From positions 1-64,000 of IMG/VR virus record IMGVR_UViG_3300049491_000829: 64,000 nucleotides of DNA; one strand, written 5' to 3'. A program made the translations under genes and the position numbers. This document shows positions 16,651 through 63,854 of this stretch, piece by piece. This DNA comes from a virus. The notes below the pieces were generated by a model. The model was not told the origin of the DNA. It saw only the letters and a list, made by a program, of their open reading frames with translations, and searched no databases. Position 1 is the first letter of the stretch. Every line of letters begins with the position of its first letter.

Positions 16651-17112
16651 ATGGTGACAAATCTTTTTCTAGAATTAGCTGTAATTGATTGGGAAAGCGA
16701 GGTTATTGACTACGAAGATTTGCAAAATATTACTTCCCAAATGTATCCAGGGCGATCGCATGAGGAGAGAGCAAAGCTGATTCGTTCTAGCTACGGACGT
16801 TTGTATAAAATCTGGCGTTTTTTGTACAAACTTTCTCCGAACATAAGTATTATTGAGTGCATACTGACAAAACTTGTTGGTAGAAGCATCACCGTGGGTC
16901 CCGTGACTATCTATGGTTGCAATGCAATGATGTGGTACTGGGAAATTTACGGTAGTTACAAAGGCGATCGCGGGTACTGGCTATTTCGTCCGCCATGCTT
17001 CAAAATCTTTGGACACAGGGGTTTCACTTTGGGTAGATTGTACTGGAGTCCAGACGGTACACCAGGGCATGGAAAAGCAAAAAATTTTTATGGGAAGGAG
17101 TCAGGGTATTGA
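16651..17112 (+). CDS. Hypothetical protein upstream of portal
   Basis: 153 residues, unknown family. Helical first half (about 35-75, LIRSSYGRLYKIWRF), then an aromatic, Gly-rich half (MMWYWEIYGSYKG, GRLYWSPDG). Its TGA overlaps the TTG start of the portal gene, so the two are translationally coupled. A head-assembly accessory role is an inference from position. Confidence 0.6.
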   Translation: MVTNLFLELAVIDWESEVIDYEDLQNITSQMYPGRSHEERAKLIRSSYGRLYKIWRFLYKLSPNISIIECILTKLVGRSITVGPVTIYGCNAMMWYWEIYGSYKGDRGYWLFRPPCFKIFGHRGFTLGRLYWSPDGTPGHGKAKNFYGKESGY

Positions 17113-18584
17113 AAGACGTAGATTTGATTATAAAGAACAAAGGATATCTAACAGGCGATACTTTTTTTGACACCTTTATCGGACCCAAGCTTGAGGAAAG
17201 CGACGAAAGTAATCGAAGAATTATGGATCGAGTTCGTCGGGTTTTCCAATGTGCAAACAAAATTAGCGAAGTCGTAAGAAGACATCGCAACGCTTTAATT
17301 GGTACACCACCTTCTTACAATTTTGGCAATACCTCAGACGCGCAAGCACAAGCGATCGCAGAACAACTAAAATCTTTGATGAAAGAATGGCAACGCTTGA
17401 ATCTTTTCCAAGATGGGGCGCAGTCAAATCCTGTAAATAAAGCAATTGACGATTGCTTGACGACTGGATATGGATATTTAAGATTGTGGAGTCCGTTAAA
17501 GTATGTGCGATCGCAGAATCCGTTTAAACAAGTCGCGATGCATTCGCCCGATCCTTTGAGCGTTGAGATTAAACGAGATGCTGACGGATTTAGCAAGCAA
17601 ATCCGTTACGCTTACTACGACGAAGATGGAAAGCGCTTTTTTGAGGTGCAAGAAATAAGTGCCGAAACGGACTTTACGACAATATGGACAGAAGACGAAA
17701 AGCGCGATCGCGTCAAAATGGTAGACGCGCTGACAGGGCTAGAGTACGACGAAATTAATTTAAATCTTGGAGGTAGATATACAATTCACGAATTCAGGCG
17801 ATCGCCTTTGATCACAGACACAATACGCAGGGCACAAGATGCAATTAATTATGCGTTGACGCTAGTTCCATCACTCAACGAGTACTCAGGATTTCTACTG
17901 CACTTGATTCTTAACGGACAACCACCTGGAGAATGGCAAAAAGATGCAGCAACAGGTAAAGACAAGTTTGTCCCTGATGCTGCTGTAAAAATGTCGCCAG
18001 GGTCTATTAACTATATACAGGGTGTTCCTTTGTACAAGGAAGATAGCGAAAATCCAACAGGCTATACAAATCCTCAAGTTGACACGACACAGCCAGCGAC
18101 GATCGCGCATCTATTCGAGACGTACAAACTGTTCTCCTCAGTAATATATGAGTCAGTCGGTCAAGGGCACATCTTAAATAGTGACATGCAAATTTCAGGA
18201 TTGAGCAGACAGCAACAGCGAAGCGACTTTAAAATTGCATTACTTGAAGATGCAACAACTATTGAGCTAGTTCTTAGCGATGCATACATGGCAGCGTTGT
18301 TAATGCTCAATCGCGATCGCCCTCAAGATTATTTAGATATTAATTTAGATATCGATCTAAAAATCCACACTGGGGAAATGTTACCAGAGGATAGAAATAC
18401 TGTAAGAAATGATTACACTGCTGGGTTACTTTCAAGACAAACCGCGATCGCATCTCAGGGACATGTCGAAGATACTGCGACTGAAATCGAAACAATCGAA
18501 TCAGAACTTGAAACGTATAAAGACTCGCTAACTCCAAGAACTAATAAAGCCACATCGATAAGTAACGAATCTAACAAAATTTAG
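17109..18584 (+). CDS. Portal protein
   Basis: 491 residues from a TTG start that overlaps the previous stop (TTGA) and has an AAGGAG ribosome site 8 bases upstream. The pattern of an N-terminal NRRIMDRVRRVFQ segment, a central beta region with SPDPLSVE and RYAYYDEDGKRFFEV, long helices (LFETYKLFSSVIYESVG, SGLSRQQQRSDF) and an acidic end fits phage portal proteins of the SPP1/gp6 type, the dodecameric DNA channel at the capsid vertex. It is next to terminase but on the opposite strand, and far from the capsid genes. Confidence 0.75.
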   Translation: MKDVDLIIKNKGYLTGDTFFDTFIGPKLEESDESNRRIMDRVRRVFQCANKISEVVRRHRNALIGTPPSYNFGNTSDAQAQAIAEQLKSLMKEWQRLNLFQDGAQSNPVNKAIDDCLTTGYGYLRLWSPLKYVRSQNPFKQVAMHSPDPLSVEIKRDADGFSKQIRYAYYDEDGKRFFEVQEISAETDFTTIWTEDEKRDRVKMVDALTGLEYDEINLNLGGRYTIHEFRRSPLITDTIRRAQDAINYALTLVPSLNEYSGFLLHLILNGQPPGEWQKDAATGKDKFVPDAAVKMSPGSINYIQGVPLYKEDSENPTGYTNPQVDTTQPATIAHLFETYKLFSSVIYESVGQGHILNSDMQISGLSRQQQRSDFKIALLEDATTIELVLSDAYMAALLMLNRDRPQDYLDINLDIDLKIHTGEMLPEDRNTVRNDYTAGLLSRQTAIASQGHVEDTATEIETIESELETYKDSLTPRTNKATSISNESNKI

Positions 18585-27012: not shown

Positions 27013-29502
27013 TTAAACAAGGGCGATCGCTTGTTCTTTAGCTAGTGCTAATGTATCAATTCCTTCTTTAATAATTTCATTATCGATTGTGATTCTAAAT
27101 TTGCCTCCTTTAATCTTAGTAAGTATAATTTCTTTCTTTCTAAAGATTGACACTGCACCTGATTTAGTTGGTAGCCATTCGATTTCTTCTTCCTCTTCCT
27201 GTTCCTCTATTCCATCAATCGCCCAAACGGCTAAACGACAATCCCCATATTCATCAAATTTCTCGTAAAAATTGCGCCAGTTGTTGCCAATGTACAGCAA
27301 CACTACGTCAAAGTTTGGATTGTCAAGATTATCATTGTTTTTCTTAAGCTCTTCGCGATATTTACGATGCTCAGGAGGACAGGAAAACGCGACACGTCCT
27401 GTCATGTCGCACGTTATTTCAAACAAACGTTTTGCGATCGCGCCTGAGCCTTTGTTTGACTTTAATCCTTGTTTTGCAAGGACTACACCCTCTTTGATGT
27501 TATTTTTACCAACTTGCTCTTCAATCTTTTTGAGCCAAGCTTCCGGGTCCGAGTAAGGAATATTAGCAAAAAATGTGATAGGACGATTGTCATCTGGGAT
27601 TTGCCAGTCTTGGGTTAAACCATTTAATTCTTCAGTTAATCCTGTGAAATGATGCTTTGCAGCTATGCGTTTACCAGGGTCAGCACAAGGATCAATGTCA
27701 ATCTCTCCTAATACTTCGGCAATTGTTTCAACTAACCAATCAGGGGTGTACCATTGATCCGACATCAACGGTATATGCTTTTCTATATCTAGTCTTTGCT
27801 GTTCCGGATAAATAAGCGATCGCCCGGTTTGAATAGTCTCCGCGAGTGCGACTGTTTTGCCATCAACAGGCTGACTAAGTTGTTGAGTTTGTTGCTGAGT
27901 AGCTTGTTGTTGGGGAATACTTGCAGCTTTCCCAATTGCGCCTTGTTTAGATGGCGTACTTTGTTTCTCAGAAAATAATTTGCTTAATGCTTTTTCTACG
28001 CTTGTAGCTTCACCACGTAGAATCAAATCTGCAACTTGCATTGCAACTTTAGCGCCGTAGTTTGGATTTTGGTAAACTTCTTCGCGCAACTTGCGAACTG
28101 TCGCGACCATTTTGTCATTTTTATTAAATAGTTCGCGCAATTTAATCCGATTAGCGTCAGGAAGTGTGTCAATCCAATCAAGCAGCTTGCTAGCTTCATA
28201 AGCTGTTTTCCCAGAGAGTCCGGAACCGCGTGCGGCTTCATCCCACGCTTTGCCAGATTGGGACGCATCTTTTTTTGACACTCTTGCTTGACGATCGCGA
28301 GCTAAAGTCGCGCAATATTGCTTACGCGCAGCAATTTCCCGGATTTTCATCTCTTGATTGCGATCGCGTGTCTTGTCATTTGTATCAAGCAGCGCTTCCA
28401 CTACTTCCGCTATCGAACCAAACGGACGAACTTCAACAGGTATTGTAGAAATATTTTCAATTACAGCAGCTTGAGTACGTCTGTTCCCTGCAACTACTTC
28501 TAAATCGTAAACATTCTCATCATTTTTGACTAAGCCAACAAGAACTCGTTGCAGAATAACACCCCCGTTATTTTGAAGACTTTCTTGAATATTTGTAATA
28601 TCCTCGCCATCTCGACCAGGGTGGTAAACTTCTCTATTAACATCCAGAAATGGCAACAAATGCGGCGGATAATCCCCAATAAATCCTGACTCTAGCTCTT
28701 TTGTGCGTGCATGATACTCGCGACACACAGCGCTACGCACCGAATGAAAATATTGTCCGCGTTCTGTTGCGTACAGAATTTCAGTACCACCATCTTTCAT
28801 TGTCGCTTCTTGTCCAGCTATTAACAAAGCTGGTATTTCTTGCTCCAAAAAACCAACAAAGCCGCCTTGATAGAACTGATCGACGCGAACAATATAGCCT
28901 TTACGTGAATAACTAAAAATTGTCCGAAATTCTTCATCCTCGTCGCTTGCCTTCCATAAAGCTTCTCCTAACTCTGTTTTATCTTCTTCAATACTTTCTG
29001 CAACTTTTGCAGATTCACTACTTGTATCAACAATCTCAGACATTTCATCATCCTTAATAACTTGAAATTCTTCTATAACTGACTCTAAACCATTTTCAAT
29101 AATTGCAATTTTCCCAGGGAAAATCAGTCTTTCAACCGTAAAAATCCCTTTTTCTGTCTGGACGCGATCGCCCAATTCAACATTTAGTATGTTCAGTTTA
29201 TCATCATATTGTAAATCCAACAGCTTAACAGCCTGCTCGTTGCCACTCTGACTACGGACTATAACAGACCCGTCGTTGGATATATCGACAATTCGGACAA
29301 TTTCAGCATCGCCTTGTTTTGCTACGCAAGCGCCAAACAAATCAAAACCCGCATCTGTCAAACGGAAGAAGTTAGCAAGGTTAGATTCACGCTTTTCTAT
29401 GATTACCTGTTGTTTTGTGTGTACCTTTGAGCCTAGCTTCATATCCTTAAGTTTGTCGCGATCGCTCTCTAGTTCCCTTAACGCGCTTTTTAGTGTTTCC
29501 AT
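27013..29502 (-). CDS. ParB-like / N6-adenine DNA methyltransferase (Dam-type) fusion
   Basis: 829 residues. Residues about 50-150 and 195-260 are beta-rich, unknown. A ParB-like domain spans about 285-510, with the AGNRRTQAA motif (338-346) and a helix-turn-helix part around 425-445. After a Gln-rich linker (525-545) comes a phage Dam-like (pfam05869-type) methyltransferase: DQWYTPDW (582-589), IDIDPCADPG (601-610) and ANIPYSDP (646-653), the last being an NPPY motif with Pro to Ile. Predicted to methylate adenine N6 and bind DNA through ParB. It is driven by an operator-bearing promoter. The Ile change may lower or alter activity. Confidence 0.82.
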   Translation of the reverse strand: METLKSALRELESDRDKLKDMKLGSKVHTKQQVIIEKRESNLANFFRLTDAGFDLFGACVAKQGDAEIVRIVDISNDGSVIVRSQSGNEQAVKLLDLQYDDKLNILNVELGDRVQTEKGIFTVERLIFPGKIAIIENGLESVIEEFQVIKDDEMSEIVDTSSESAKVAESIEEDKTELGEALWKASDEDEEFRTIFSYSRKGYIVRVDQFYQGGFVGFLEQEIPALLIAGQEATMKDGGTEILYATERGQYFHSVRSAVCREYHARTKELESGFIGDYPPHLLPFLDVNREVYHPGRDGEDITNIQESLQNNGGVILQRVLVGLVKNDENVYDLEVVAGNRRTQAAVIENISTIPVEVRPFGSIAEVVEALLDTNDKTRDRNQEMKIREIAARKQYCATLARDRQARVSKKDASQSGKAWDEAARGSGLSGKTAYEASKLLDWIDTLPDANRIKLRELFNKNDKMVATVRKLREEVYQNPNYGAKVAMQVADLILRGEATSVEKALSKLFSEKQSTPSKQGAIGKAASIPQQQATQQQTQQLSQPVDGKTVALAETIQTGRSLIYPEQQRLDIEKHIPLMSDQWYTPDWLVETIAEVLGEIDIDPCADPGKRIAAKHHFTGLTEELNGLTQDWQIPDDNRPITFFANIPYSDPEAWLKKIEEQVGKNNIKEGVVLAKQGLKSNKGSGAIAKRLFEITCDMTGRVAFSCPPEHRKYREELKKNNDNLDNPNFDVVLLYIGNNWRNFYEKFDEYGDCRLAVWAIDGIEEQEEEEEIEWLPTKSGAVSIFRKKEIILTKIKGGKFRITIDNEIIKEGIDTLALAKEQAIALV

Positions 29503-30626: not shown

Positions 30627-31265
30627 CTAAAACGCTTTTGACAATCCCTGCTTTTTGCTTGCGTACAAAGCTGCGATCGCGCTTACTGCTTTATCTCTAG
30701 CTTGTTGCTCTGCTTCGATGTCGATTTCAGGAGCAATCGCAGGCGACAAAGCTAAGACGTTATGAGCAGTTGGCTTAATCAAGTCCTGCATAGTCTTGTC
30801 TTTTTTCCAGTTAGTGGATTTTTTAAAAGATTTCCAAGCCGTGATAAACTGATTTTTGAGCGTACTGTGTAAACTCTCAACCCTTGCTTCTGCTAGCAAG
30901 GATAAACCACCTAGAGTTTGCAAAGCTAGCTTGGCGTGACCTGATAAAGTGTCTACAATCGCAGGACGATCCGTTGGCGCAAGTCGCAGCGCTTGCAAGA
31001 TTTTGAGCCATTCTTGCAGCGCTTCTGCTTCTTCGTCACCTGTAATCAACTGGGTAAACTCTTGGGGACTAGGCATCCATTTAAGTGTCGCGATCGCCTT
31101 TTTCTTTGCAATCTCGATTTCGTCGTCATCAAGAACGCCAAAAACTTCATTTTTCCAAACTTGCATTACTACTTTGGGAATTTCTTTCTCGTCAGGGCTT
31201 TTCCCGTGTAACCAAGAAAAATAACTAGTTAGCTCTCCTAGAAGTTCTTTAATGGGTTCTTCCAT
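30627..31265 (-). CDS. Putative replication helicase loader-like protein
   Basis: 212 residues. The layout of an N-terminal helical domain, a central LKWMPSPQEFTQLI motif, then HAKLALQTLGGLSLLAE and FITAWKSFKK resembles lambda P/DUF6475-type proteins that deliver the host helicase to the phage origin. It lies directly downstream of the initiator gene, the same order as lambda O and P. The similarity is by pattern, not a strict match, so the name is provisional. Has its own operator-bearing promoter. Confidence 0.5.
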   Translation of the reverse strand: MEEPIKELLGELTSYFSWLHGKSPDEKEIPKVVMQVWKNEVFGVLDDDEIEIAKKKAIATLKWMPSPQEFTQLITGDEEAEALQEWLKILQALRLAPTDRPAIVDTLSGHAKLALQTLGGLSLLAEARVESLHSTLKNQFITAWKSFKKSTNWKKDKTMQDLIKPTAHNVLALSPAIAPEIDIEAEQQARDKAVSAIAALYASKKQGLSKAF

Positions 31266-31371: not shown

Positions 31372-33000
31372 CTAAACGAATGCTTTTATTTCGTGTCGAT
31401 ATTCCGCAAACTCCGGGCGATCGCTTATTATCAAATCTCTCAATTCTTCAACCCAGTTAGGTCGTCGATCGAAGACTTGCGTCATCGGAAGGTGTTTGAG
31501 ATTGTTGTCTATGAAGAACTGTTTTTTATACGCTCTAAAAATATCGCTTCTCTCTAGCTCCGAAAACATTACTTTGTCCGCTTGTTGATTTAAAGCGTCT
31601 GCAACTTTCATCGTCGCAACTTCTTTAGGTAGTGCGTCTCGACTAGTCGCGCTGACTAATGCTGGATTGCTTTCTATCATTGCATTCCACTCAATAAACA
31701 ACTCGTCGCGTCGTTGGTTATTGTATTTTGCAATTGAAATATGCTTCCGTATCTGAGTTAGCGCAGAACCAACTGTCAAAGACTTGTAAAACTTTGTTGC
31801 AGAAAGTCTTTGACACATCCAGTCTTCAAACCCAGCGTGAAAATGATAGCGATCGCCTTCTATATCCCAAGGAAATTGTTCGCTCCCGTCTAAATTGCGT
31901 TTTACGCCCGGTTCATTTACGCGGATGTACTTTGCAGCATTCTCGACAGTTAAAGTCGCTTGCACGCGATTTTGAACGGGCTGCGCGGCGACTGCGGAAG
32001 ATTGACCCTCTAGGCAAATATTGTGGTCAACATAAGAATTCTCAATCTTAGTAACAGGCGTAGTCGCGCAGTCTATGACTTCTTCTTTTATTTCTATATT
32101 CTGCTGTACCTCCCATTCCTGGAGTTCGTTCTGTATTTTATCCCAATCAACATTTTCAAAATTGAAAGATTCCTCATCCCCCCCCAAGGCTGTTTCTTTT
32201 ATTTCCAAATCCACGGCTGTTAATTCAAAATTCCTGAACACGACAAATCCAGCAGTTGAAGCAACCCCCCCAAGGCTGTTCTCTTCGTTTTTTCCAGCCT
32301 TCGCGTTTAATAAAGATTGGGGGGGTATAGATAATATATTTTTTGTATTATCTTTTAAATCTTTTACATATATAGTCAGTTTGGTCACGTTCTGCAAACT
32401 AGTTTGGTCACGTTCTGCAAACTCAGTTTGGTCACGTTCTGCAAACTCAGTTTGGTCACGTTCTGCAAACTCAGTTTGGTCACGTTCTGCAAACTCAGTT
32501 TGGTCACGTTCTGCAAACTCAGCGCTGTCTGGCATCTCTACAACAAAACGAGCGCGAGGGCTTTTACGTTTTGAACGAGGACGATCGCTCTTAAAAGTTC
32601 CGCCTAGAATCGCGTCAATCTTCTCGTCTAGCGCTTCATAATTAACTTTGTAATGCAAAGTAGCAGGCGAACCCCTTAATACTGTCTCAATCACTCCTAG
32701 TTCAATCAAATGATTTCTATTTTTTTCAATTTCGTAGCGACTCAAAGATGTTTTTTCTTCCCACTCACGAACTGATTTGCTAAACCAGCCATTTTTACCA
32801 GCTTCGAGCGATCGCTGACTCCAGTAATCCGCTTGGGAAAGCAGTAAACCCCCACATGCACAACCCGCGATCGTTGCAAATATCCGAGAAAAAGCAATTA
32901 CCCCTGTTAGTTTTTGATATTTGCTCTTCCCTTTTTTCTCGTTTCCAGCTACACTAGGTTCAACTTGACTAGACGATTCGACTTGAGTTGAATATTTCAC
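31372..33000 (-). CDS. Replication initiator (O-like) with internal iterons
   Basis: 542 residues. The N-terminal winged helix (about 45-122: GLLLSQADYWSQR, GWFSKSVREWEEKTSLSRYE, LIELGVIETV) is the type found in phage and plasmid replication initiators and DnaD/O-like proteins. Residues 161-200 are five copies of the octapeptide EFAERDQT, followed by SLQNVTKL, which is a sixth DNA copy read in another frame. The rest is a variable linker and a C-terminal helical domain with WMCQRLSATKFYKSL. In lambda the origin iterons lie inside gene O; here the DNA repeats and an adjacent AT-rich tract point to the same design. No promoter of the shared type is clear; a possible TTGCAC/TATAAC promoter lies near 33207-33240. 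Confidence 0.72.
   Translation of the reverse strand: MKYSTQVESSSQVEPSVAGNEKKGKSKYQKLTGVIAFSRIFATIAGCACGGLLLSQADYWSQRSLEAGKNGWFSKSVREWEEKTSLSRYEIEKNRNHLIELGVIETVLRGSPATLHYKVNYEALDEKIDAILGGTFKSDRPRSKRKSPRARFVVEMPDSAEFAERDQTEFAERDQTEFAERDQTEFAERDQTEFAERDQTSLQNVTKLTIYVKDLKDNTKNILSIPPQSLLNAKAGKNEENSLGGVASTAGFVVFRNFELTAVDLEIKETALGGDEESFNFENVDWDKIQNELQEWEVQQNIEIKEEVIDCATTPVTKIENSYVDHNICLEGQSSAVAAQPVQNRVQATLTVENAAKYIRVNEPGVKRNLDGSEQFPWDIEGDRYHFHAGFEDWMCQRLSATKFYKSLTVGSALTQIRKHISIAKYNNQRRDELFIEWNAMIESNPALVSATSRDALPKEVATMKVADALNQQADKVMFSELERSDIFRAYKKQFFIDNNLKHLPMTQVFDRRPNWVEELRDLIISDRPEFAEYRHEIKAFV
32325..32377. other. AT-rich tract, candidate DNA-unwinding element
   Basis: About 50 bases of almost pure A/T (from TATAGATAATATATTTT through CTTTTACATATATAG) directly beside the iteron block inside the initiator gene. 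This is the usual arrangement of an origin's unwinding element. Confidence 0.55.
32378..32519. repeat. Iteron array inside the initiator gene (candidate origin)
   Basis: Six copies of a 23-bp core AGTTTG-N11-CAAACT (itself with inverted ends), five at 24-bp spacing and the leftmost at 23 bp. The one-base offset puts that copy in another reading frame, so its coding differs (SLQNVTKL instead of EFAERDQT). That the DNA is conserved while the reading frame changes suggests the DNA is the functional repeat. Confidence 0.85.
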
Positions 33001-37105: not shown

Positions 37106-39148
37106 ATGGATAACAATCTACCAAAACTTGATTCTCGCGAAATGACGCGATTAAAGAGTGAGTATCCAAGTCTTGCTCATTTGGAAGCTGGAGATACAGC
37201 GCGATGGCTAACAATTCGACGCGAGGATTTATTAAGTAAAGCACGAGACGACAGAACAGGGATGAACTTGAGTAAGACTATTACGATGGCAGGCGCGATC
37301 GCAGGTGGTCTTTGTTACGCTGTAAGTCCGCTTGGTGTAGCAGGTGCGATCGTCTCTGGCATTGGTTATGCTTGGGCTGTTGCTCAAGACATGAATGATA
37401 GCCATATATTTGCGCCTTTGCCTTTTGTTCGTGGCGATTTTTTTGAATTTCTCCAAGCAATGGGCGATGCTGAGATGCGGGAAGAATATTTCAGCCATCA
37501 AAACGAGCAAGCTGACTTGATGGGGCATTTAGAGCCATTTGAGCGTAAGGAATACGCAATGCTCGCTGTCCATACTCACACGTTATCGGATTATTTGGAG
37601 CAGATTGAAGAAGGTAAGCGATTTTACGCTTATAGATGGCTGCTGCAATGGTTTGTCCAACTCCAAGGGAATGTACCTGGTGTTGAGGAATTACACAGTC
37701 ATATGAGAAGCGTCAAAGTCGATTCAGCAATTAACTATCAGCACGTCAAAGCATTGCGATCTCAACAAGAGCAAATCGCGCAAATAACTGGCATTCCAGG
37801 ATTGTCTAGTCCGTTGCAAACTGTAAGTTTACCTCAAGCTCAAACTGTGAGTTTACCGACTGCTCAAGCTGCTAGCATTCCTGGTTTATCAAAAGTAGAA
37901 TCTTCCACAGCACAATCTGCAAATTCTCAACAGTCTAACGAAACAATCAAGCAAACGCAAGCAAAAGCTCAGAAGATTATTGAGAAACTGGAAACAGACG
38001 GATTTGAGATTAGAGAAATAATGGCAGGGCAGATTATTGGCATAGCTGGTACTCAACGCGGAGGTAAAGGGACGCTTGCTGGACTTTGTGCAGTGTTAAA
38101 TCTTGCAATTGACTCAACACAGACTGTTGAGTATTTCACATCAGGGGTTGACGTTTATCCTTTTAAATGTCGTTTGCACTGCGCTTTGAGTTATCCCAAT
38201 CTAGATATTCAAGACGCTGACAAGCAAGTTGCTCGTGATTTGCTTGCATTCCTCAAAAAGCTTGCAAATAGCGAACCATATTCGCAAACTGGTTTAATCC
38301 TTGTCATTGACGAATGTTTGACTTTGCTCGGACAACTCGAAGCAAAGGACAGAGCATGGGCTATCAAATATCTTCTTTCCAATTCTGCAAAAACAGGTGC
38401 TTGCATCATCATGGTGCTTCACGCGAATAACTTGACTGCGATCGCTGGCGAAGAAACGTCAGGCATGGCTGCAACATTTCAAGAGTCAGTTCACTTTATT
38501 GGTTGTAAAGCTCAAAGTGTTCCAATGCCTAACAATCCTATGCGTTCAATGAACGTTGCATCAGGCGAATACTTTATAGCGGATGTGAAAAATTTTGGCA
38601 AAGCGATCGCAGATGGTGAACTTGGACAAGTACCTGGCTGGCTCAAAAAAGAAATCCACCCCGGTAGCAAACAACCCGATCCTGTGCGATCGCTTCTCAA
38701 GTTTTTCCCAGAACTTGAAGACTGCGATCGCTCTTCAGTCATCCTTGGTGGAAACGTTGCTCTAAGTAGTGAAAGTGATGATTGGGACATGGACTATACA
38801 GACGAAGTAGTTTTGCAGCGCGATCGTACCCCTGTTCAAGTAGTAGAAGAAGTCAAAGACAAAGTAAAGAATGAAACACAATTCGACAAAGACGAATCTT
38901 ACGAGGATGACGAAAGATTTATCTCTAAAGCTACGTCAATTATAGTTGCATACATGAATGAGAAAAAAATGTCTAACTTTGAGCGAAAAGACACAAGGAA
39001 ACTCAGAGAAATTTATAAATTTCGCTCAAAGCTTGTAGGTAGGCATTTGAACATTAGTGAGATGGACAGAGTTATAAATAAGCTTATTCTTGACGGCTAT
39101 ATGGAAAAGAATGGAGATAACTTTATTTTTACCCTTGATGAAGATTAA
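37106..39148 (+). CDS. Membrane-associated P-loop ATPase (HerA/coupling-protein-like)
   Basis: 680 residues. Hydrophobic segments at about 60-95 could cross the membrane. Residues about 310-500 form a P-loop ATPase: Walker A AGTQRGGKGTLAG (near 315) and Walker B LILVIDECL (near 396-404), followed by NSAKTGACIIMVLHANN. The C-terminus has a winged-helix-like region. Motifs suggest a DNA-translocating or coupling ATPase of the HerA/FtsK/VirD4 class; such genes are common on cyanobacterial plasmids. Could serve DNA transfer, segregation or packaging of the plasmid form. No relaxase is seen, so conjugation is only a possibility. Confidence 0.62.
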   Translation: MDNNLPKLDSREMTRLKSEYPSLAHLEAGDTARWLTIRREDLLSKARDDRTGMNLSKTITMAGAIAGGLCYAVSPLGVAGAIVSGIGYAWAVAQDMNDSHIFAPLPFVRGDFFEFLQAMGDAEMREEYFSHQNEQADLMGHLEPFERKEYAMLAVHTHTLSDYLEQIEEGKRFYAYRWLLQWFVQLQGNVPGVEELHSHMRSVKVDSAINYQHVKALRSQQEQIAQITGIPGLSSPLQTVSLPQAQTVSLPTAQAASIPGLSKVESSTAQSANSQQSNETIKQTQAKAQKIIEKLETDGFEIREIMAGQIIGIAGTQRGGKGTLAGLCAVLNLAIDSTQTVEYFTSGVDVYPFKCRLHCALSYPNLDIQDADKQVARDLLAFLKKLANSEPYSQTGLILVIDECLTLLGQLEAKDRAWAIKYLLSNSAKTGACIIMVLHANNLTAIAGEETSGMAATFQESVHFIGCKAQSVPMPNNPMRSMNVASGEYFIADVKNFGKAIADGELGQVPGWLKKEIHPGSKQPDPVRSLLKFFPELEDCDRSSVILGGNVALSSESDDWDMDYTDEVVLQRDRTPVQVVEEVKDKVKNETQFDKDESYEDDERFISKATSIIVAYMNEKKMSNFERKDTRKLREIYKFRSKLVGRHLNISEMDRVINKLILDGYMEKNGDNFIFTLDED

Positions 39149-39177: not shown

Positions 39178-39434
39178 ATGGGACGAGTGGGACGGATGGG
39201 ACGACACCCCAAAAACCCCTTGTTTTTACCCTCGTCCCACTCGTCCCACGTCCCACGTCCCAACCGTCCCAAGTGACGCAAATCCTTACACAGCAAGTCG
39301 TCCCACCTCGTCCCATTATTATTTTTTGATTTATAACCAGACGACGATATAAGTCATGAGTCGTCCCACTCGTCCCAAGTCGCCGTCCCAACCGTCCCAA
39401 GTGACGCAATCCCTTACACAGCAAGTCGTCCCAC
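39178..39434. repeat. GTCCCA iteron array with a 51-bp direct repeat (candidate centromere)
   Basis: Fifteen copies of GTCCCA: three inverted (39179, 39188, 39197) and twelve direct (from 39234 to 39428). A 51-bp block is repeated nearly perfectly at 39256-39306 and 39384-39434. It lies upstream of parM. No gene is credible within. Likely binding sites for a partition or replication protein. Confidence 0.72.
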
Positions 39435-39491
39435 TCCGTTAAGCTAACTTTTTAAAGTTTTTACACAAATCATCATCAGGAGTTCAATAAA

Positions 39492-39968: not shown

Positions 39969-41057
39969 GTGAACCAAAAAACAGCTAATTCTACTGCTCC
40001 ACCGACTATTTATATTAGTGCGGACTTTGGAAACCATTTTACAAAAATGATGATTACCCGCCCTCAAGAATCTACATCTACAGTGGTCGTGAATAGTGGA
40101 TTAATGTTCGATCAACCGGAAAAAGGTGTTATTTACGATCCCAAAGACTCGGACGTATTTTATTGTAAGTACGGATCGAAAGCATGGAGAGAAAAGTCTT
40201 GGTTTCCTCATCCCAAAGGTGTACGTCCGTTCAATCTTAACGGCACAGAGTTTTGTCAAGGGGACAACGCAAAAGGTATGCTTGCTTTTCCTTTGTTGAT
40301 TGGTAACGCTTGGGATTATTTACAAGACGGCGACACGATCGCACTCAACGCAACTACTCAGAACATCCATACGACGAGAGATGTAATGATTGCTCAATTA
40401 GAAGGAATTCACACGATTACTTATAACGGTGAGCCTAAAAAGCTGACAATCTTAAAGCCTGAAGTGTTAGCAGAAGGAATTGGGGCTTTACTCCACCAAG
40501 GCAGCAAAAAAACAGACGTAACCACACTACTAGATATTGGAGGAGATACTGTAATTGTCAGCATATTTGCTGGGTTAAGGCTAAAAGGTGACGTGATACC
40601 AATGCCAGGACTAGGCACAAACTTTTTTGTATCGGAAATGATGGGTAATGGGGAAGTTTCTAAAATCTTAAGCAGACAGCCTCATAATCATGATGAGTGC
40701 TTGGAAATTGTTCGCGGAAAGACATTTGTAAACGCGGACGGGATAGAGCTAGATTTTAAACCCGCTATTAGGAAAATGTCGGAAGCGTGGCTACATGAAA
40801 TCTTTACCCGTGTTATTGACCCTTACAAATTACGGATTAACGAGTCAAATATCAGACTTGCAACTGGCGGAGCCGTGCATATTCACGGTATTAGTGATTG
40901 TCTCAAAGCAAAAGGTTACACAACTCTTAAGGACGGGCAAAAGGCAAACGTAAAAGGCATACACGCTAGATTGCTAAGTAGTCACAATATTGCGCCTGTA
41001 GAAGTTAAAAAGGCAAAAAAACCAGCAAAGGCAGTCAAGGATGCAACAAATGACTAA
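39969..41057 (+). CDS. parM: ParM-like actin-type partition ATPase
   Basis: 362 residues from GTG, with an AAGGAGG ribosome site. The actin-fold motifs are YISADFGNHFTK (phosphate 1, about 15-26), LLDIGGDTVIVSI (phosphate 2, about 187-199) and LATGGAVH (adenosine, near 297-304). ParM-type proteins form filaments that push plasmid copies apart. The parR-like gene follows with an 8-base overlap. This supports stable inheritance as a plasmid. Confidence 0.8.
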   Translation: MNQKTANSTAPPTIYISADFGNHFTKMMITRPQESTSTVVVNSGLMFDQPEKGVIYDPKDSDVFYCKYGSKAWREKSWFPHPKGVRPFNLNGTEFCQGDNAKGMLAFPLLIGNAWDYLQDGDTIALNATTQNIHTTRDVMIAQLEGIHTITYNGEPKKLTILKPEVLAEGIGALLHQGSKKTDVTTLLDIGGDTVIVSIFAGLRLKGDVIPMPGLGTNFFVSEMMGNGEVSKILSRQPHNHDECLEIVRGKTFVNADGIELDFKPAIRKMSEAWLHEIFTRVIDPYKLRINESNIRLATGGAVHIHGISDCLKAKGYTTLKDGQKANVKGIHARLLSSHNIAPVEVKKAKKPAKAVKDATND

Positions 41058-48036: not shown

Positions 48037-48488
48037 TTTCCGATTTTGATTCAATCCAATTCCTGCTAATCTCCTGGGCTAAAGCAGAATCAGATATCTG
48101 TACAGCAAGAAATGAAAGCAACACAATTTTTGATATAGTAATCGATATTGGCAAAGAACCAAGATTTTTTACATTTTACCTTGCTGGAATTGGAACGAGT
48201 AGCGAAAGTGCAAATCTTGATGGATTGTTTTTAGCAGCAACGTTCGCGATCGCAAAGAAAAGCCTAACCCTTGCAATTTTTCCTGGATACAGTGCTACTT
48301 TGACCAGGGACAGTAATGTTTATGGAGTTGGACGACAAAGCAAGCATCCTGGTTTATCAGTTTTAGATGCTTATGTCGCTTATCTCGACAAAGCAAGCAT
48401 CCTGGTTTATCAGTTTTAGAGCTTATGTTGCTTATCTGTGGATGTCGCAGCGCAATCTAAGTTACGATCCGTTGCCGCGTTTAGCTTA
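48033..48488 (+). pseudogene. Hypothetical gene disrupted by a 53-bp tandem duplication
   Basis: The open frame ends at 48419 (128 residues), but a 53-bp unit starting at 48333 is repeated at 48386, shifting the frame. Reading the second copy in the other frame continues as AYVAYLWMSQRNLSYDPLP to TAA 48486-48488, the likely original C-terminus. The duplicated unit ends the protein early as DKASILVYQF. The N-terminal part could still be made. Function unknown. Confidence 0.6.
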
Positions 48489-55690: not shown

Positions 55691-56217
55691 GTGAATTGGA
55701 TTTGCAAGTAACACCAACAGGGTAAAAAGTTTTTTGCGAGTTTTTCTACCAAAGAGCGATCGCTCGTATTGGGTGCGTAGCTAGGCGGGACTTGGATTAT
55801 CCAAGAAAAAGGGTCACTCCCCAAAGGATTATTAAGCCTTGTTACGCCCAAAATAAATCCGCTACTAGGAACTAAAGACGCATTTAAATTAAAAAGTTGA
55901 AACAGAAAAGGTAATATTTTTTTGTTGCCTCGATTTCTCCAGATGTAATCAGTGTTTGCCAAAAGCGATCGCTTGACATCTACTTGCCAGGATGCGTCCC
56001 ATAAATCGCCCCAACCACCCCAACGCGCAAGCATGTCGAGCCATTCAGGAAAACAAGTCTCAGGCTCTAATCTATCTGTTTCGTAGTAAGCAAGAAGAAC
56101 GCTCCAAAATTGGAATCCTTCATCAATCCCTGCTGTTAGGGCATTTGCAATTTCTTCCATCTCGCTGCGATCGCGATAACATTTAGGTAAACTATTAACG
56201 ATCAAGTTTTCACTCAT
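55684..56217 (-). CDS. Tail protein I (P2 gpI-like) baseplate component
   Basis: 177 residues. PEWLDMLARWGGWGDLWDAS followed by KRSLLANTDYIWRNRGNKK fits the gpI family, which joins baseplate J and fibres. Its ATG overlaps the ATG of the gp25-like gene on the other strand (CATG), so the two genes start back-to-back with no space for promoters. Confidence 0.7.
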   Translation of the reverse strand: MSENLIVNSLPKCYRDRSEMEEIANALTAGIDEGFQFWSVLLAYYETDRLEPETCFPEWLDMLARWGGWGDLWDASWQVDVKRSLLANTDYIWRNRGNKKILPFLFQLFNLNASLVPSSGFILGVTRLNNPLGSDPFSWIIQVPPSYAPNTSDRSLVEKLAKNFLPCWCYLQIQFTT

Positions 56218-56551
56218 GGATGTTTCATTTCCCCTGTCTTACAATAACTACGGCTCTTTACAACTTGTTGACGGCAGTAGCAAATACACTTCGCAGATTA
56301 AACATCTACTAAACACCGTTGTTACTGAGCGCTTACTTTCTCCTAACTTTGGATTTCCAATCGACTTGCTTTACAATCTGCCATTGCCTGATTTAGTTGC
56401 AGAAAGAATTAGACTTGCGATCGCTCCTTATCTTCCAATTCCTTTTGCTGTTAAAATCAATGCCCCTGTCAACGGAAAATTAGGGATAGAAGTAGCAATC
56501 GGAGAAGAAGAACCAGAGGTGATAATTTACGACTTGCGATTATTCGCTTGA
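56216..56551 (+). CDS. Baseplate wedge protein, gpW/gp25-like
   Basis: 111 residues. FPLSYNNYGSLQLVDGSSKY, then LNTVVTERLLSPNFGFPIDL fits the gpW/gp25 family (T4 gp25), a sheath-baseplate trigger element. The only virion gene of this block on the plus strand; its start overlaps the gpI-like gene start. Confidence 0.75.
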   Translation: MDVSFPLSYNNYGSLQLVDGSSKYTSQIKHLLNTVVTERLLSPNFGFPIDLLYNLPLPDLVAERIRLAIAPYLPIPFAVKINAPVNGKLGIEVAIGEEEPEVIIYDLRLFA

Positions 56552-62733: not shown

Positions 62734-63393
62734 CTAGGTTGTTGCTTTGTTGAACCTTCCATAGTTTGCAGCAATGTAACTGCTAGCTTGCGAAGTCGGA
62801 GAAGTCGGAGAATTACTACTGCTCCCAGTTGGTAAAGGCGATCGCGTTTCCTGTTGTTGAGTACCTGACTCTGAGGGAAATAACGCTCGTCGTTTCCAGC
62901 CCTCTATCCGTTCCAAAAACTCGCTAAAGGCAACTTCTTTGTTGTCTTTGTCCTTAATCGTAACATTATCATCTTTAATAATTACGTTCTCTACTGCAAT
63001 ATCACTAAAAATACTTGCGAACGCTTCATAGTCAGCACCCGTTTTTGCTGCAACATCTCGGAAATGGCGATCGCGTTCATACTTCACAGACAATGCTTTC
63101 AAATCGTCCAATTCCTTAATTGTCGCGTCACTATTTGTTTTTAATTCGTCTCGCTCCTTTGTTAATGCTTCGACTTGCGATCGCAGTTCTTTCAACAACT
63201 TATCAACGTCTTCGTCACTTCCCGCAGCATCCTTAAACCTTTGCAAAGTTGCTTCAGCTTCTCGCAACTTCCTTCTATACTCCTTCTCTCCATTTCCAAT
63301 ACTTGCAGAGTGAGCCTGGACAGCTTCAAAAGCGTCTGTCCCATTTTCTTGCTTTTTTATCCATTCCAACGCTTCTGCGTAACTCATTGGCAT
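62734..63393 (-). CDS. Capsid scaffolding protein
   Basis: 219 residues from MPMSYAE at 63393, with AGGAG upstream; an upstream GTG lies inside a palindrome and was rejected. A long central coiled coil (about 40-115, with LRSQVEALTKERDELKTN) and Ser/Pro/Thr-rich tail with YGRFNK end are typical of scaffolds that guide capsid assembly. Just upstream of the decoration and capsid genes. Confidence 0.7.
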   Translation of the reverse strand: MPMSYAEALEWIKKQENGTDAFEAVQAHSASIGNGEKEYRRKLREAEATLQRFKDAAGSDEDVDKLLKELRSQVEALTKERDELKTNSDATIKELDDLKALSVKYERDRHFRDVAAKTGADYEAFASIFSDIAVENVIIKDDNVTIKDKDNKEVAFSEFLERIEGWKRRALFPSESGTQQQETRSPLPTGSSSNSPTSPTSQASSYIAANYGRFNKATT

Positions 63394-63411
63394 ATAATTT
63401 TCTCCTAGTTT

Positions 63412-63437
63412 CACTTAGAGAAACTTTTCCCTAAGTG
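63412..63437. repeat. Dispersed palindrome, copy 27
   Basis: Centre CT; just upstream of the scaffold gene, in a divergent region. Confidence 0.88.
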
Positions 63438-63476: not shown

Positions 63477-63854
63477 ATGCACGATTCAATATTTTTAAAC
63501 ACCCAGCAAGCTACTAATTACGAGTTAATCAAAGAAGACGGACTAATCGTTGGCAGCGCGATCGCGATTGAATTTGTAATTCATCCAGAAGAATTTGACT
63601 ACTTTGTCGTTATCCAAAATCTTCACATCAATCCGCAGTTTACAAGACAAGGGTATGCAAGCGCACTTGTCAAGAAAATAATTCGAGACAATCAATCAGC
63701 AATAATTTGTCTCGAATGCAAAGCTGATAAGCAGTGCAAAAATCATCTTGACGACGAGCAATTATATCAATGGTATTTGCGATCGGGGTTCGTAAATAGC
63801 AGTCCATTCCATGAAGGCGATCGCTGGATGCATCGTCCTGCTAAATCGTTTTAA
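63477..63854 (+). CDS. GNAT-family N-acetyltransferase
   Basis: 125 residues. FVVIQNLHINPQFTRQGYAS, with the acetyl-CoA-binding Q/RxxGxA pattern RQGYAS, followed by ALVKKII and a C-terminal QLYQWYLRSGF segment. Acetylates an unknown amine substrate. Single plus-strand gene next to the head block. Confidence 0.72.
   Translation: MHDSIFLNTQQATNYELIKEDGLIVGSAIAIEFVIHPEEFDYFVVIQNLHINPQFTRQGYASALVKKIIRDNQSAIICLECKADKQCKNHLDDEQLYQWYLRSGFVNSSPFHEGDRWMHRPAKSF

Follow-up and report, generated by a model that had tools for sequence, protein, structure and literature searches.

In lambdoid phages the replication origin consists of iterons and an AT-rich tract in the middle of gene O, the AT tract coming after the iterons (PMC7466680). 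The O protein attaches to the iterons as dimers, and a pair of iterons together with the AT tract forms the smallest unit for unwinding (PMC7466680; PMC3985674). Bacillus phage SPP1 has two such regions: gene 38 itself contains oriL, and oriR is located close to the moron genes of the late region (PMC6316719). Both are composed of direct repeats and an AT-rich unwinding element, and both are bound by gp38 (PMC6316719; PMC3485210). At oriR, gp38 has been proposed to stall forks and thereby to start the switch to concatemers (PMC6316719; PMC3485210).

The DNA analysed here (the window) comprises bases 1-64000 of a 64,125-bp virus record. It is highly probable, in our assessment, that the tandem repeats within its lambda-O/DnaD-like gene are putative initiator-binding iterons of an in-gene phage origin, and that this module is present a second time in the genome. 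The coordinates of the relevant features are collected in Table 1.

Table 1. Features of the two repeat-bearing sites and of neighbouring genes
Feature	Position	Strand	Basis
Gene directly after initiator	30627..31265	(-)	pairwise protein comparison
Initiator gene, lambda-O/DnaD-like replication initiation protein, 542 aa (P0001)	31372..33000	(-)	PHROG profiles and tblastn
G7 run closing site 1 (C7 read outward from array)	32319..32325	(.)	
AT-rich tract of site 1, putative DNA unwinding element	32326..32377	(.)	nearest-neighbour energy
Iteron array 1, six exact 23-mers, 24-bp period	32378..32519	(.)	repeat search
Winged-helix DNA-binding region, about residues 29-128	32617..32916	(-)	tblastn; alignments cover query residues 22-134 only
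Actin-like partition protein gene	39969..41057		phrog_691
Head scaffolding protein gene	62734..63414	(-)	phrog_206, E 1.3e-5
Acetyltransferase-like gene, small, moron-like	63477..63854	(+)	
Iteron array 2, seven exact copies, 24-bp period, apparently non-coding	63894..64060 of record (window holds to 64000)	(.)	23-mer search
AT-rich tract of site 2	64063..64112 of record, outside window		nearest-neighbour energy
C6 run of site 2	64114..64119 of record, outside window		

The repeat array within the initiator gene

The initiator matches phrog_9773, 'replication initiation O-like' (E 1.2e-23), and phrog_6493, 'DnaD-like helicase loader' (7e-12); Pfam gives no match, and the AlphaFold model is too poor to use (pLDDT 35). 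By tblastn the winged helix is the only part of the protein common to its relatives, which include annotated initiators of Vibrio, Pseudomonas, Staphylococcus, Acinetobacter and Salmonella phages as well as those of two Synechococcus phages and two Calothrix plasmids. The product of the next gene resembles a protein that a Marinobacter plasmid encodes immediately behind replication protein O (pairwise E 2e-8, with 27% identity across 88 aa) and shows no resemblance to the Synechococcus phage P protein; it is possibly a partner in the lambda P position.

Exact copies of AGTTTGGTCACGTTCTGCAAACT (n=6) begin at positions 32378, 32401, 32425, 32449, 32473 and 32497. The first two are spaced by 23 bp, one C being absent at their junction, and the other spacings are 24 bp. 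Read on the coding (-) strand, the array encodes EFAERDQT five times and then SLQNVTKL, the leftmost, AT-proximal copy being one base out of frame. The array reaches a tandem score of 98, and shuffled versions of the initiator gene never exceed 12; the repetition is not due to chance. The AT tract and the G7 run adjoin the array on its left, that is, downstream within the initiator gene. No contig in IMG/VR or GTDB contains the exact 23-mer, and on that ground a dispersed cyanobacterial repeat was rejected. The preliminary description had reported six copies of a 23-bp core beside an AT-rich tract in the coding region, and a one-base shift of the leftmost copy that alters its peptide; the first is confirmed by the exact copies and the second is visible in the coding-strand translation. 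Just past the G7 run, C7-C8 runs occur at 32178-32185 and 32265-32271, each inside a repeated CCCCCCCAAGGCTGTT. The record has six G/C runs of at least 6, and three of them fall within 150 bp near site 1.

Arrays of this kind recur among related initiators. The 300 bp around and after the winged helix were surveyed in 20 relatives, with 868 other 300-bp segments of the same loci as controls. A tandem array with a 22-23-bp period follows the winged helix in 16 of the 20 relatives and is found in 10 of the 868 control segments. The Synechococcus phage array lies under the survey threshold yet is detected by Tandem Repeats Finder, and a Burkholderia plasmid carries an array further downstream. 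Adjacent units in the relatives mostly share 70-84% identity as DNA as against 7-21% as peptide, the exceptions being two loci whose unit register is unreliable (L013, L074) and two whose peptide value is not computable (L065, L077). Since neither 22 nor 23 is divisible by three, each copy is shifted in frame relative to the one before it. Units that are alike as DNA and unlike as peptide argue that DNA has been kept at this position across the family; DNA rather than peptide is conserved at the array position of the O-like initiators, as judged from the aligned units.

Array 1 itself is the family outlier, with its 24-bp period and mostly in-frame copies, and its single 23-bp spacing is the family norm. 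Size and place of the arrays are alike, and the iteron sequences differ. Between the array 1 iteron and the family iterons there is modest similarity, mainly in the outer half-sites; a pooled similarity score as high arose in 2 of 1000 full shuffles, and in 85 of 500 in which shuffling was confined to the core. Iteron similarity across the family is thus suggestive, but not significant once only the core is shuffled.

These comparisons bear on what had been claimed from the repeats of the one gene. Reading them as origin-like iterons is upheld by the phrog_9773 match and by the same-size arrays at the same place in relatives. The further claim that the DNA and not the peptide is selected gains from the relatives, but the frame slip from which it was argued is weak evidence alone, because six identical copies with a one-base slip could be a recent neutral duplication. 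The case for the origin reading is carried by the relatives and the second array, not by the frame slip. Related initiators keeping EFAERDQT peptides with synonymous DNA changes, the pattern that had been named as contrary to that claim, were looked for and not found, and no relative among those examined keeps the EFAERDQT repeat.

The second array and the surrounding genome

The same iteron recurs near the end of the contig, 31.5 kb or about half a genome away from array 1. In array 2 the first junction has a G in place of C. On its right side the array meets an AT-rich tract, followed by a C6 run. No convincing gene covers array 2, and the nearest upstream gene ends at 63854; an open minus-strand frame of 79 codons crosses the array and runs off the contig end, so coding is still possible. 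Array 2 is situated in the late gene region, upstream of the genes for the scaffold and the major head protein and separated from them by the acetyltransferase-like gene. The scaffolding gene also matches phrog_95 at a similar score, a match judged spurious. The contig stops 65 bp past array 2, and the record has no terminal repeats marking a complete circular or redundant genome.

When the flanks of the two sites are read outward from the arrays, GACTATATA, then TTTAAAAGA, ATACAAA and the C-run align. The alignment of the AT flanks scores 56 versus 26.6 +/- 4.9 in shuffles, none of 2000 shuffles scoring as high; without the first 12 bp, 3 of 2000 do. The far-side flanks of arrays 1 and 2 give no comparable match. 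By nearest-neighbour energy, no other 50-bp windows of the record are as unstable as these two tracts, at -47.9 kcal/mol for site 1 (32326-32375) and -48.8 kcal/mol for site 2; the third least stable is at -51.3 kcal/mol. Paired AT flanks together with identical iterons indicate that a module of iterons, unwinding tract and C-run occurs twice. The iterons are oppositely directed relative to the AT tract at the two sites, and the iteron-AT junction nevertheless reads alike at both because the iteron ends, AGTTTG and CAAACT, are inverted repeats.

Cumulative GC skew, proposed in the preliminary description as a check, falls to minima near 33 kb and at the end of the contig; the former agrees with an origin at site 1, as a weak signal. 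Taken strand by strand at third positions, G on the plus strand is scarce at 20-33 kb in genes of either orientation, and its level is higher at 33-42 kb in plus-strand genes. This change is in keeping with an origin near 33 kb, with small counts and a weak signal. At site 2 the skew is confounded by gene direction, and nothing clear is seen after correction.

The wider genome bears on the host. Relatives of an ATPase-like protein (37106-39148) occur on 53 plasmids from Nostoc, Tolypothrix, Calothrix and others, the best of them reaching 43-45% identity; a module is thus common to the phage and Nostocales plasmids. The 829-aa product of 27013-29502 combines a ParB N-terminal-like region (narrowly below the cut-off, with a Pfam E of 1.5e-5) with a Dam-type DNA adenine methyltransferase domain. 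The Calothrix and other Nostocales plasmid relatives, the actin-like partition protein and this ParB-Dam fusion suggest a phage-plasmid of a filamentous cyanobacterium. A cyanobacterial host had already been presumed, and it fits the relatives found in Calothrix plasmids, a Synechococcus phage and Nostocales plasmids. The intergenic region that precedes the actin-like partition gene contains a cluster of CGTCCCA heptamers (39179-39439), including a near-perfect duplication spaced by 128 bp; the cluster is a candidate centromere or cyanobacterial heptamer repeat.

Queries with the initiator, major head protein, ParB-Dam protein and ATPase found no close phage relatives in viral contigs, and the terminase query found distant relatives only (at most 37% identity). 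Head and tail genes are divided between both ends of the contig, a gene order unusual for a tailed phage. A likely portal gene (17109-18584, weak phrog_145 match) and, by eye, a probable gp25-like baseplate gene (56216-56551) lie on the plus strand among minus-strand virion genes. Other features include a 53-bp direct tandem duplication (48333-48437) whose copies are 96% identical and which spans the 3' end of a small ORF, and an apparent remnant of a TnpB/IS605-type zinc-ribbon end without an intact ORF (780-1040, by eye).

Proposed role of the two sites and alternative explanations

The repeats in the initiator gene are very probably the site at which the phage's own initiator starts DNA copying. 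For site 1 (32319-32519) the family resemblance gives high confidence in candidate initiator binding and opening. The O-like protein would bind the 23-bp iterons through its winged-helix domain and, once bound, would open the adjoining AT-rich tract, leading to helicase loading; site 1 would in this way start theta replication, as do lambda ori or SPP1 oriL. At site 2 (63894-64119 of the record) the same initiator would have a second target, which would act either as a late origin or, as proposed for SPP1 oriR, as a fork barrier formed by the bound protein that sets off the concatemer switch. Site 2 may thus function as a late origin, a fork barrier or, alternatively, a titration site.

Other accounts of the arrays themselves can be weighed against an origin. 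That the in-gene array is a neutral expansion, or one acting on the EFAERDQT peptide, with the DNA playing no role, would suit the five of six copies that are in frame and their perfect identity, which fits recent duplication. It is hardly credible given that the frame-rotating arrays of relatives stand at the same place without a conserved peptide, that the same 23-mer appears again in apparently non-coding DNA, and that both arrays have homologous putative unwinding tracts; peptide-level selection on array 1 was rejected from those frame-rotating arrays. Actin-like partition systems use tandem repeats as centromeres, and since the phage encodes an actin-like partition protein its arrays might serve as the centromere of that system. 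This too is very improbable: the actin-like gene is 7.5 kb away from one array and 23 kb away from the other, the separate CGTCCCA cluster sits just upstream of that gene, and array 1 is placed where related initiators carry arrays. A partition centromere was rejected on the array positions and on the partition gene having a repeat cluster of its own.

The remaining alternatives concern site 2. It could be an assembly artefact, the array having been joined to the wrong flanks at the contig end, for it includes an exact repeat of about 168 bp and the contig stops 65 bp later without end repeats. This is improbable, as the AT flank of site 2 has clearly diverged from that of site 1 and is no copy of it, there are seven iterons rather than six, and the first junction has G instead of C. 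Diverged flank, copy number and junction base mean that a second AT-array unit exists even if its far side is mis-joined. More serious, though still unlikely, is the possibility that only site 1 is an origin and that site 2 is a control locus which binds and titrates the initiator and does not start replication. The incA locus of P1 is an initiator-titrating control locus of this type. Where a replicon carries identical binding sites, these can pair or act in trans, copy control matters in a plasmid-like phage with an actin-like partition protein and a ParB-Dam fusion, and the skew change is clear at site 1 only. Against titration, site 2 keeps a homologous AT tract, among the two least stable of the record, which pure titration does not need.

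Because site 2 has a place in the late region beside a moron-like gene, as SPP1 oriR does, the pair is interpreted as a two-site system like that of SPP1, and a single initiator serving two origin-like sites is the best reading of sites 1 and 2. A more far-reaching version, which we regard as speculative and rather doubtful, is a cyanobacterial phage-plasmid in which a single initiator fires two origins about half a genome apart and of opposite iteron polarity, one for plasmid-like maintenance and the other for the lytic switch. Recombination between the identical direct-repeat arrays could split the genome into two half-size replicons, each with an origin.

If the two-site reading is true, the SPP1 layout extends to another phylum, and the role of the second initiator-bound site, as late origin or fork barrier, becomes testable in a second system. 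A short, testable origin and the initiator belonging to it would also become available for a Nostocales-associated element, and would be useful in replicon building for such hosts. Frame-rotating in-gene arrays after the winged helix, being common in O-like initiators (16 of the 20 examined), offer a simple origin finder that is applicable to unannotated phages and plasmids.

Comparison with known origins

A sampled search of the literature found no paper on cyanophage origins of this kind. The closest counterparts by sequence are plasmids p2 and p3 of Calothrix sp. PCC 7716 and the Synechococcus phage Yong-L1-251, which encode the same winged helix (35-43% identity) followed by a 22-23-bp in-gene array. 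They differ from the present phage in that the period is not a multiple of three, the copies are imperfect, the iteron is another one and there is no second array. A second array was not seen in any of 14 initiator relatives, the iterons clustering in the initiator gene only.

Site 1 resembles the lambdoid origins in having iterons and then an AT tract, in the same order, within an O-like initiator gene. It differs in being built of identical 23-mers with a 24-bp period, mostly in frame, whereas lambdoid phages have 4-6 imperfect iterons. Unlike lambda, the phage has a much longer initiator and a second array elsewhere. In lambda the pair of iterons nearest the AT tract is enough for unwinding and for replication in vitro. 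As with the published description of SPP1, there are two distant sites of repeats and AT tract, one in the initiator gene and one in the late region. The sites are 31.5 kb apart on a 64-kb record, however, compared with 12-13 kb on 44 kb in SPP1; the iterons point opposite ways relative to the AT tract at the two sites; and both the host and the virion type are others, a tail sheath being present here. Site 1 is a new example of the already known in-gene origin, and the two-site layout is new among the O-like relatives examined.
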